DNA from: Actinotalea ferrariae
Lineage (GTDB): Bacteria; Actinomycetota; Actinomycetes; Actinomycetales; Cellulomonadaceae
NCBI RefSeq assembly: GCF_019733465.1
Contig: NZ_JACVQL010000111.1
Coordinates: forward strand, 1 to 45,611
Length of the DNA stretch: 45,611 bases
Direction: 5' to 3'
The notes under the pieces are model-generated. The model did no database searches, was not told the origin of the DNA, and saw only the letters and a program-made list of their open reading frames with translations. The first letter of the stretch is position 1. Every line of letters begins with the position of its first letter. Made by a program: the position numbers and the translations under genes. This document shows, piece after piece, positions 16,573 through 19,544 of this stretch.

Positions 16573-18741
16573 TCAGGGGCTCGTGAGCACCACGAGCCTC
16601 TGGGTCGCGCGGGTCATGGCCACGTAGCGGTCGACGGCGCCGGCAGTACCCGAGCCGAGGTCGTCGGGGTCGACGAGCACGACCAGGTCGAACTCGAGGC
16701 CCTTCGCCAACGCCGGCGTGAGCGACCGGACGCGCGACGACGCCTCGAACGTCGGGTCGCCGATGACGCACGCCGTCCCCTCGGCGTGGTCGGCGAGCCA
16801 TGCGTCGACCGTCGCGGCGAGGTCGGCCCTCGACCCGTGGACGACCGGGACGCCGGTGCTGCGGACCGACGTGGGGACGTTGGCGTCCGGCAGCGCTGCG
16901 CGGATGACCGGTTCCGCCTCGCTCATGACCTCGACGGGGGTGCGGTAGTTGATCGCGAGCGACGCGATCGTCACCTCCGCGAGCCCCACCCGACGGAGCC
17001 GCTCCTCCCAGGACTCGGTGAACCCGCGTCGGGCCTGGGCGCGGTCGCCGACGACCGTCATGCTCCGCGAGGGGCAGCGCCGCAGCAGCATCTGCCACTC
17101 GGCGTCGGTCAGCTCCTGCGCCTCGTCGACCACGATGTGCGCGAACGGCCCGGCGAGCGCGTCGGGACCCCCGTCGGGCGTGCCCGTGGTGTCGACCAGC
17201 GCCGTCTGGAGGTCCTGGCCGCGCAGCATCGACATCACACGCATCTCCGTGTCGTCCGACGCGATGAGGTCGCGCACGACGTCGTCCATCCGCTCACGCT
17301 CGGCAGCGGCGGCCGCCTCCTGCCGGCGCCTGCGCCGCGAGGCCTCCGGGTCGCCGAGGCGCTGCCGTGCCGCGTCGAGGAGCGGCAGGTCCGCGGTCGT
17401 CCAGGACTGGGCGTCGGCTCGGCGCAGGGCGCGGACCTCCTCGGGCGCCAGCCACGGGGCGCAGAGGCGGAGGTAGGCGGGCACCGACCAGAGGTCGCCG
17501 ACCAGCTCGCCCGGGTCGAGCACCGGCCACGCACGGCCGAACGCCCGGGCCAGGTCGCGGTTGCGGGCCAGCGACCTGCGGACGAGGTCCGCGGGGGAGT
17601 CCTCCTCCTCGTGCTTGTCGACCAGCACGTCGAGCAGCGACTCCCAGATGACGTCGCGCGCCTCGTTGTGGGGCGTGCCGGGGTCCGGCGCCGCGAACGC
17701 CTCGGCCCAGTCCTCGGCACCGACCCAGACGTCGGACCACTCGGTCTCGACCAGCAGCCCCTCGGTCGGCGCCTTCTCGTAGAACCGCACGGCGGGCTCG
17801 ATCGCGGCCACCATCGCCGCCGATGACTTCAGCCGCGCGACGACGACGTCGTCCTCGGTACGGGCGGTGCTGCCCTCGGGGACGAGGTCACGCAGCGTGC
17901 ACGTCTGCACGCCCTCCTCGCCGAGGCGGGGCAGCACGTCGGCGACGTGGTCCAGGTAGGGCCGGTGCGGGCCGACGACGAGCACGCCGCCCCTGCGGTG
18001 CCCGAGCCGAGGGTCGGAGTAAAGCAGGTAGGCCGCCCGGTGCAGCGCGACCACGGTCTTCCCGGTGCCCGGGCCGCCGTCGACGACGAGCGCACCTCGC
18101 GAGCCGGCGCGGATGATGGCGTCCTGGTCGGCCTGGATCGTCCCGAGCACGTCCCGCATGCGCCGGGACCTGGTCGCGCCGAGGCTCGCGATGAACGCGG
18201 ACTCGTCGTCGAGCGCGAGCCGACCGTCGAGTCCCTCGAGGCCGTCCGGGGAGAAGGCCTCGTCCCAGTAGTCGCTGATCCTGCCTCGGGTCCACCGATA
18301 CCTCCGCCGGCTCCGCAGACCCATGGGATCGGCATGCGTCGCGCCGAAGAACGGTTCGGCGGCGGGGGAGCGCCAGTCGAGGAGCAGCCGGCGACCGGCG
18401 CGGTCGGTGAGGCCGAGGCGCCCGACGTAGAGCGCCTCCTCATCGCCGTCCCCGCCGGCCGTGATCATCCTGCCGAGGCACAGGTCGAGGCCGAACCGGC
18501 GAAGCGTCCGCAGGCGAGCGGTCAGCCGGCGGACCTCCTGGTCGCGGTCGAGCGCCGCCTGCCCGCTCCGCCCGGGAGCCCTGCGAGCCGCGTCGAGGCG
18601 CTCCGAGAGCGCGTCGATCGTGTGATCGAGGGTCTCGGCGATGGCGGCGAAGTGGCGCTCGTCCGCGGCGACGAGCCGGGGCGCCGCCTTGGCGGCGAGG
18701 TGCTCGGGCAGGTTGAAGGGGCTGGTTGTCAGCGTGGTCAC
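16573..18741 (-). CDS. helR: RNA polymerase recycling ATPase HelR (rifamycin resistance)
   Basis: A 722-residue superfamily 1 helicase-like ATPase of the HelR group, which displaces rifamycin-bound RNA polymerase from DNA in Streptomyces and mycobacteria. The N-terminal arm begins with SPFNLPEHLAAKA and the coiled-coil-like segment 25-80 expected to enter the polymerase channel. Then come LCLGRM, WRSPAAEPFF, Walker A GGPGTGKT (222-229), DEAQ (539-542), GDRAQ, KGLEFD (680-685) and YVAMTRATQ (706-714). GGAG lies 8 bases before the GTG start. A 19-bp inverted repeat resembling the rifamycin-associated element is located in the predicted leader region. No truncation is visible, so it should be functional. 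Confidence 0.93.
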   Translation of the reverse strand: MTTLTTSPFNLPEHLAAKAAPRLVAADERHFAAIAETLDHTIDALSERLDAARRAPGRSGQAALDRDQEVRRLTARLRTLRRFGLDLCLGRMITAGGDGDEEALYVGRLGLTDRAGRRLLLDWRSPAAEPFFGATHADPMGLRSRRRYRWTRGRISDYWDEAFSPDGLEGLDGRLALDDESAFIASLGATRSRRMRDVLGTIQADQDAIIRAGSRGALVVDGGPGTGKTVVALHRAAYLLYSDPRLGHRRGGVLVVGPHRPYLDHVADVLPRLGEEGVQTCTLRDLVPEGSTARTEDDVVVARLKSSAAMVAAIEPAVRFYEKAPTEGLLVETEWSDVWVGAEDWAEAFAAPDPGTPHNEARDVIWESLLDVLVDKHEEEDSPADLVRRSLARNRDLARAFGRAWPVLDPGELVGDLWSVPAYLRLCAPWLAPEEVRALRRADAQSWTTADLPLLDAARQRLGDPEASRRRRRQEAAAAAERERMDDVVRDLIASDDTEMRVMSMLRGQDLQTALVDTTGTPDGGPDALAGPFAHIVVDEAQELTDAEWQMLLRRCPSRSMTVVGDRAQARRGFTESWEERLRRVGLAEVTIASLAINYRTPVEVMSEAEPVIRAALPDANVPTSVRSTGVPVVHGSRADLAATVDAWLADHAEGTACVIGDPTFEASSRVRSLTPALAKGLEFDLVVLVDPDDLGSGTAGAVDRYVAMTRATQRLVVLTSP

Positions 18742-18809
18742 GTCATCAGCTCCGGGATCCGGCGCGCCGGGGGCGGCGCTTCGAGGTCACGGAGTCTGCG
18801 CCACGACGG

Positions 18810-18828
18810 GGGCCTTGCGGCAAGCCCG
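18810..18828. promoter_or_regulatory. Rifamycin-associated element (RAE)-like inverted repeat upstream of helR
   Basis: The plus strand reads gggccttgcggcaagcccg (19 bp), built around CTTGC-G-GCAAG. A palindrome of this kind, CTTGCGGCAAG or its complement, is the core of the published RAE as I recall it. It lies 69-87 bases before the helR start and just downstream of a possible -10 TATAGA (minus strand, 18841-18836). Confidence 0.65.
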
Positions 18829-18835
18829 CGGGTGC

Positions 18836-18841
18836 TCTATA
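18836..18841 (-). promoter_or_regulatory. Possible -10 hexamer for helR
   Basis: TATAGA on the minus strand lies just upstream of the RAE-like repeat. The last base is not the usual T, and no -35 box is clear. Confidence 0.3.
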
Positions 18842-18889
18842 GGTTGAGGACGAGGGGCAGGACCGGCGCCGGCAGCCGGCCGCCATCCG

Positions 18890-18895
18890 TAGGCT
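18890..18895 (+). promoter_or_regulatory. Leaderless -10 hexamer for the HAD gene
   Basis: TAGGCT ends 7 bases before the GTG at 18903. Confidence 0.5.
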
Positions 18896-18902
18896 GCTTC
18901 CT

Positions 18903-19544
18903 GTGACTCGCCTCGTCTGGGACATGGACGGGACGCTGCTCGACTCCACGCACGTGGTCCCGGAGGCCTTCGTCGCGACGGTGCGTGAGCTCGGCGTCGA
19001 CGACGTCGATCACGAGAGAGTCGTCGCGGCGTACTCGTTGGGAGTGCCGGAGGTGATGCTCGAGCACCTGGTCGGGAGGCCGCTGAGCGATGCTGAGGTC
19101 GGCCTCTACTACGACCGCCTCCTCGGCAGCAGCGTCACGGCCTACGCGGGCGTGCTGGAGACTCTTCGCGCACTCCGGGCGCGTGGGTTGCCGATCGTCA
19201 TCTTCACCGGTGCCAGCACTCGTGCCGCACGGACGCTGCTGGCGTCAGCGGGCATCACGTACGACGTCCTGGTGGGTGGCGACCAGGTCGCGCGTCCCAA
19301 GCCTGCGCCGGACGGTCTCCTCGAGGCGGCACGTCGTCTGGCCGTCGACCCGGCCGATCTCGTCTACATCGGTGATGCGCCCACCGACCTCCGAGCAGCC
19401 AGATCCGCCGGGGCTCGCGGTGCTGCTGCCACGTGGGGGCATCTGTACCGAGCGGACGAACCTGCCGACGTGCACCTGCTGGAGCCCGCGGACGCCCTGG
19501 ACCTCTTGGCCGCCCGGGGTCCCCACCCGGACGATCGCCGATAA
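18903..19544 (+). CDS. HAD-family hydrolase (phosphoglycolate phosphatase-like)
   Basis: A 213-residue haloacid dehalogenase-type phosphatase with all four motifs: I DMDGTLLDS (nucleophile Asp7, acid Asp9), II FTGAS, III KPAP with the catalytic Lys, and IV GDAPTDL. A helical cap occupies roughly residues 17-85, as in the Gph/PGP subgroup. The GTG start follows a -10 hexamer by 7 bases. It is divergent from helR and convergent with the FMN-barrel gene. The substrate is not predictable. The gene ends at the edge of an AT-rich patch unlike the surrounding DNA. Confidence 0.88.
   Translation: MTRLVWDMDGTLLDSTHVVPEAFVATVRELGVDDVDHERVVAAYSLGVPEVMLEHLVGRPLSDAEVGLYYDRLLGSSVTAYAGVLETLRALRARGLPIVIFTGASTRAARTLLASAGITYDVLVGGDQVARPKPAPDGLLEAARRLAVDPADLVYIGDAPTDLRAARSAGARGAAATWGHLYRADEPADVHLLEPADALDLLAARGPHPDDRR

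Follow-up and report, generated by a model that had tools for sequence, protein, structure and literature searches.

In the helR locus of Actinotalea ferrariae, a rifamycin-associated element (RAE) is found at the centre of a wider conserved unit, in which two -10-like hexamers, one on each strand, lie at mirror positions about the dyad of the palindrome. The composite unit, its symmetry and its constancy across unrelated rifamycin genes are shown by the comparison of related loci. With regard to function, we tentatively favor, at somewhat less than an even chance, a reading in which the RAE would be the shared -35 region of two mutually exclusive divergent promoters, with rifamycin tipping the balance between them. 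RAEs are described, in the excerpts of the literature consulted, as 19-bp palindromes located before actinobacterial rifamycin-resistance genes, including helR (PMC8655204; PMC10719064; PMC10194278).

The RAE Palindrome at the helR Locus

The window, i.e., the whole stretch of 45,611 nucleotides that was analyzed, harbors a 19-bp palindrome at positions 18810-18828 (GGGCCTTGCGGCAAGCCCG on the plus strand, or CGGGCTTGCCGCAAGGCCC when read on the helR strand, from 18828 to 18810). It is located between helR (16573-18741, minus strand) and a divergent open reading frame (18903-19544, plus strand) encoding a HAD-family hydrolase (Pfam PF00702 and PF13419). The 11-bp core of the palindrome, at 18814-18824, reads CTTGCGGCAAG on the plus strand and CTTGCCGCAAG on the helR strand, approximately 70-72 bp upstream of the helR start codon, and its dyad centre is at 18819. 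The corresponding pattern, CTTGCNGCAAG, occurs only once in the 4,260,250-base (4.26 Mb) genome, precisely at helR, and the reversed CTTGCNGCAAG pattern, used as a control, gives three matches per strand in the same genome. The core was compared both with relatives and with the 19-mer consensus that we take to be that of the RAE, which it matches and on which no count depends. The initial annotation had reported an RAE-like palindrome between helR and its divergent neighbor, and this is borne out by the position and the genomic uniqueness of the core as well as by its sequence, the same element being carried by relatives before helR, rox, rph, rgt, and arr. The element is a further RAE of the known kind, correctly spotted from the letters, just upstream of a rifamycin-resistance gene.

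The identity of that gene likewise stands. It encodes a protein of 722 aa with a GTG start, which is assigned by sequence family to HelR (class II HelD), with 1242.9 bits for NCBIfam NF041254 (motor_HelR) against a cut-off of 750 and a phmmer E-value of 3.6e-102 against the HelD structure from M. smegmatis (6yxu). A second HelD-type gene, 40 per cent identical, can be found on another contig (G000:C412:10883-13054; L003 and L004); it is without an RAE core, since the sole genomic occurrence of the core is at helR. Regarding general scans, an inverted-repeat search of the window did not return the palindrome, and sigma-70 promoter and terminator consensus scans of positions 18600-19000 detected nothing, so that neither of the promoters predicted below is backed by them. 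An inverted repeat of 14 nt (18752-18765 and 18866-18879), 79 per cent complementary, spans the helR promoter region, possibly by chance in GC-rich DNA.

Distribution of the Motif and Genes Located Behind It

Among the helR orthologue loci fetched by protein, the core is found in 17 of 18: it is exact in 16, has one mismatch in L010 and is absent from L020. All 30 of the best-scoring family loci, of which the window is one, carry it as well, exactly in 24 and with a single mismatch in 6. These two sets overlap (L005 reads as L034 does, and L022 as L029). Class-wide, the pattern GGNCTTGYNRCAAGNCC matches in 135 of 296 genomes and its backwards control in 52 of 296, among the matches listed. From these listed matches and other sources, a sample of 127 motif sites was examined, namely 30 and 40 from the class search, 29 from 29 hand-picked genomes and 28 fetched from the listed matches of both searches. 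Assignment of downstream genes by longest ORF was dropped, as it gave wrong frames in some GC-rich loci, in favor of tblastn with seven references (HelR, Rox, Rph, Rgt, Arr, an ABC and an MFS transporter). In the NCBIfam check of these references, rox, rph, and arr scored above their cut-offs; the best match of the rgt reference was Rgt, at 624 bits, below the cut-off of 800.

The gene directly behind the motif is HelR at 59 of the 127 sites, Rox at 28, Rph at 16, Rgt at 12, and Arr at 5, with a drrA-type ABC transporter at 3 and a DHA2 MFS transporter at 1. For 124 of the 127 sites, the gene is thus assigned to one of seven references, which are enzymes, motors or transporters and include no regulator. 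The other three are L109 and L163, which also have no conserved flanks, and L114, where an intact RAE composite precedes a rox-like start that seemingly loses its frame (by eye, a broken rox). In L103, L105, and L107, the RAE composite lies directly before drrA-type ABC transporter genes (L103 scanned, L105 and L107 assigned by similarity), which may be regarded as candidate rifamycin-responsive exporters, and in L060 a DHA2-family MFS efflux gene is located behind the composite. A similar reading frame of 338-359 aa is divergent from helR in L123, L155, and L157; in L123, it is an Rv2578c-type radical SAM gene.

For the positional counts, loci of more than 80 per cent identity were dropped within each set, which reduced the helR-first set from 46 to 38, the motif-first set from 123 to 111, and the outside-class set from 15 to 12. 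Left out of the counts were L020 (no site), L037 and L055 (the window itself), L109, L114, and L163, and, from the outside-class set, L208 and two further sites. The 111 non-redundant motif-first loci comprise HelR 54, Rox 26, Rgt 12, Rph 10, Arr 5, ABC 3, and MFS 1. The helR-first set was collected by protein similarity and its loci were aligned by the core alone, so its flanks are free of selection. Since the loci are akin to one another and a species may occur in more than one set, the counts do not represent independent events.

A Wider Conserved Unit with Mirror Symmetry

In an ungapped profile of 113 non-redundant sites out of 125, the window included, conserved blocks extend past the published 19 bp. 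With position 0 at the first C of CTTGC and the dyad centre at position 5, the helR side displays CANAAT at 26-31, and the far side displays TANNTT on the other strand at -16 to -21. The anchor letters of these two putative -10 elements are equidistant from the dyad centre, with -11A at +/-22 and -7T at +/-26. Of the offsets from 10 to 49, a single one, offset 22 (A, accompanied by T at 26), is occupied on the two strands alike in most loci; the runner-up reaches 3 of 111 motif-first and 0 of 38 helR-first loci. With the window excluded, 107 of 111 motif-first and 36 of 38 helR-first loci have the two -10-like hexamers intact. Of the six loci that depart from this, four (L022, L023, L112, and L155) look like one-base shifts, from which a 20-bp outward spacer seems to be tolerated, and L100 and L111 have lost letters.

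On the helR side, the sense NANNNT downstream of the RAE is filled in 109 of 111 motif-first loci, with A at -11 in 110 and T at -7 in 109, and the -12 base is C in 101 and T in 2. On the outward side, the -12 base is T in 109 of 111, with A at -11 in 109 and T at -7 in 110; the predicted outward start, seven bases beyond the -10, is G in 106 and is followed by G in 104. Conservation also concerns the arms of the palindrome outside the -35 letters, with G at -5 in 102 of 111, G at -4 in 108, and C at +14 in 100, none of these letters being selected by the search pattern. In the outside-class non-redundant loci, found by a search that did not require the arms, G is present at -5 to -2 in 12 of 12.

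In the window, the predicted helR promoter consists of a -35 TTGCCG at 18818-18823 (minus strand), which overlaps the RAE, and of a -10 CAGACT at 18793-18798 placed after a 19-bp spacer, the spacing at which the helR-side -10 is conserved; the transcription start zone would be at 18786-18788, from the -10 spacing. The predicted divergent promoter mirrors it about the dyad, with a -35 TTGCGG at 18815-18820 (plus strand) that overlaps the helR -35, a 19-bp spacer, a -10 TAGGTT at 18840-18845, and a presumed start G at 18852. The two predicted -10s are separate, with 41 bp between them, and the predicted starts are approximately 65 bp apart. The HAD-hydrolase start codon lies 51 bp past the predicted outward start; in the Actinotalea genome, the divergent promoter, if transcribed as presumed, could serve this gene.

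The initial annotation had placed the RAE downstream of a possible helR -10, TATAG. This string is present, as stated; its conserved letters, however, suit a -10 on the opposite strand. On the upstream side of the RAE, an antisense TANNNT is present in 108 of 111 loci, against only 22 of 111 for the best sense TANNNT position. In the direction of helR, the final base of TATAGC (-7) is never T (0 of 111) and is C in 106. A conserved sense -10 upstream of the RAE was ruled out on these grounds (no more than 22 of 111 and 2 of 38 loci). As the sense -10 lies downstream of the RAE and none is conserved upstream, the RAE most likely overlaps the helR -35, as published for promoter P2 of M. smegmatis, and the promoter layout first proposed is most likely wrong.

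The Composite as a Tag for Rifamycin Genes

The composite pattern of the wider unit, searched with up to three mismatches, gives one site in the genome of the strain, at helR. In the 200 family genomes listed, it gives 107 sites, with no match for the backwards control, and 106 of these precede helR, rox or rgt. Directly upstream of helR are 87 of the 107, spanning 86 of 92 helR genomes. The other 20 comprise 12 sites before rox, 4 before rgt, 3 before helR sequences that did not pass as full helR, and one (L224) without an assigned gene, its core being too diverged for the assignment script. Six helR genomes are without an adjacent composite; G027 and G057 hold an RAE with a shifted spacer (L023 and L029). 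In G052, G148, G151, and G176, and likewise at L020, no composite was detected upstream of helR, through incomplete sequence or loss. Phylum-wide, a mirror pattern without arms matches in 43 of 396 genomes, against 3 for its backwards control. Outside the class there are 18 sites, of which 13 precede rox, one precedes rph and one precedes arr. The remaining three, L208, which has no reference gene, and two others, have no arms and by their letters look like chance matches. The composite can thus be used as a specific tag for finding new rifamycin-response genes.

A Hairpin at the Predicted Outward Start

The outward start was set from the -10 alone. On the outward strand, 48 of 109 motif-first loci have a stem of at least 7 bp starting at +1 to +4, and in 38 it starts exactly at +1; a T-rich tail (4 or more T within the following 8 nt) comes after 34 of the 48 hairpins, against 26 of 1626 background 8-mers. 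An earlier count gave 50 stems in 111 loci; the comparison values were 30 of 554 for upstream positions and 129 of 2220 for shuffles. Over all three sets, the 50 stems located exactly at +1 have 19 different 7-nt arms with the pairing kept, e.g., at pair 3, which is C-G in 34, A-T in 15, and G-C in 1; a single arm sequence is common to 15 of the 50. Comparison thus shows a terminator-like structure at the putative outward start in a large minority of loci. It is rarer in the helR-first set (14 of 38, with a T-run in only 5 of the 14) and rarer still outside the class (2 of 12). No hairpin of at least 7 bp was found at the outward +1 in 61 of 109 motif-first and 24 of 38 helR-first loci, nor in the window (L055), where the HAD-hydrolase gene is found instead. 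The hairpin might alternatively insulate neighboring genes, but the position of its T-run, on the flank that faces away from helR, agrees with transcription departing from the RAE. Two further roles were considered and set aside, namely a trans-acting RNA made from the outward hairpin, since the arm sequences vary between loci, and a transcribed RNA hairpin formed by the RAE, since both predicted starts lie outside it.

Proposed Mechanism and Alternative Readings

We infer that both promoters are active and mutually exclusive, and that rifamycin shifts their balance. The gene-ward promoter (TTGCCG-19 bp-CAGACT, minus strand) would lead to helR, and the outward promoter (TTGCGG-19 bp-TAGGTT, plus strand) would fire away from it; since their -35s overlap, only one polymerase could be accommodated at a time. 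The outward promoter would then be a futile competitor that holds helR low. It looks futile because it has the better -10, with T at -12, and because a hairpin follows it in many relatives. Rifamycin would lift the occupation of the outward promoter, allowing polymerase to load toward helR, either because polymerase is arrested or destabilized there or by way of a dimeric regulator that shares the palindrome. This shift of balance is the weakest step of the mechanism, as exclusion by itself would bring about induction only where polymerase carrying rifamycin departs from the outward promoter more quickly than the free enzyme does. A further version, in which RNA polymerase would itself be both the reader of the RAE and the rifamycin sensor, the futile outward promoter and its built-in terminator would occupy the shared -35 so that the resistance gene stays off, and the drug-bound enzyme would fail there and vacate the site for the gene-ward promoter, with no dedicated regulator, appears rather unlikely to us; if true, it would explain why the RAE-reading factor is described as unknown in the available text of reviews (PMC12802891; PMC10719064).

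Against shared -35 competition stand the loci that have no hairpin at the outward +1, the window among them, the conserved arms, which contacts with sigma do not explain and a dimeric regulator would, and the M. smegmatis start P1, located approximately 20 bp upstream of the RAE (PMC10719064), which is not visible here as a conserved sense -10. The classical alternative, which we rank behind competition as quite possible and as a strong rival, is an operator, i.e., a dimeric regulator binding the RAE over the helR -35, with the mirror promoter secondary; in its simplest form, a repressor would be released when rifamycin is present. It is in keeping with a palindrome whose conserved G and C arms exceed the -35 letters, with the presence of these arms in every non-redundant outside-class locus, and with the factor that reviews, in the parts available, presume to exist (PMC12802891; PMC10719064). 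However, it leaves unexplained both the second -10, which 108 of 111 loci keep at precisely the mirrored place, and the terminator-like hairpin at the predicted outward start, and no regulator is among the genes assigned behind the motif sites. The G and C arms nevertheless speak for a dimeric protein on the palindrome, which may act alone or alongside the competition.

Three other readings have much less in their favor. If the TATAG upstream of the RAE were the helR -10, the RAE would be transcribed or would act as an operator over +1; the string is in the window and common in relatives, but the missing -7T, the near invariance of the antisense letters and the better sense -10 downstream of the RAE make this layout very improbable. 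A convergent dual-promoter alarm of the B. subtilis helD type, which involves the same protein family, the same signal and two promoters (PMC12802891), is less credible still, as the two conserved -10s are oriented outward. As for a chance palindrome in GC-rich DNA, two of the 127 sites (L109 and L163) and the backwards-control matches of the class-wide search could be cited for it, but the core occurs once in the Actinotalea genome, exactly at helR, and the composite stands directly upstream of helR in nearly all helR genomes of the family sample; together with the lack of backwards composite matches in the 200 family genomes, this refutes chance, to which we give practically no credence. Shared -35 competition thus remains the tentatively preferred reading. 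With the mirror layout found at seven gene types (in three loci only for ABC and one for MFS), it offers an alternative to an unseen regulator; RAE-mediated rifamycin sensing is described as open in the excerpts available (PMC12802891; PMC10719064), a question that the layout makes testable.

Comparison with Known Systems

No description of a mirror -10 or of an outward promoter was found in the searched portions of the literature on RAE, helR and bidirectional promoters, the original RAE papers aside, and the RAE goes unmentioned in the consulted part of PMC11464796; the main text of PMC13246000 likewise contained nothing of what was looked for. The mirror-promoter architecture of the RAE class, absent from that searched literature, is what the present comparison adds. 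The element shares with the published RAE its 19-bp palindrome, its location upstream of helR and its overlap, here predicted, with the -35 of the helR promoter. In M. smegmatis, deletion of the upstream half of the RAE abolished the rifampicin induction of helD, and the -35 of promoter P2 overlaps the RAE (PMC10719064); the genes most induced after 20 min of rifampin include a rox homologue, MSMEG_2174 (a helicase), and two arr genes (PMC6529629). The published element, as far as the available accounts go, is a palindrome with sense-strand promoters only, to which a mirror -10, a putative outward promoter and a hairpin are added here.

The helD/pps rifampicin alarm of B. subtilis also has two opposed promoters before a HelD-type gene, with competition as a possible sensor; induction was abolished, however, once the pair had been shortened to the point of polymerases colliding, which speaks against the competition reading (PMC12802891). 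In B. subtilis, the promoters are convergent and spaced, facing each other, whereas the conserved -10s found here are directed outward and the predicted promoters are divergent, with overlapping -35s. The bidirectional promoters of E. coli have in common with the RAE unit the DNA symmetry, the divergent transcription and the mutual exclusion of polymerases, as proposed here; competition is described there when one direction is strongly activated, in favor of the reading preferred here, and basal activity was too low for it in the five promoters tested, which speaks against that reading (PMC12825309). In E. coli, the -10 is shared and the starts are mostly 18 bp apart, also 10 or 23 bp (PMC12825309), whereas the RAE unit has separate -10s, a predicted shared -35, predicted starts much further apart, and, in many relatives, a hairpin.
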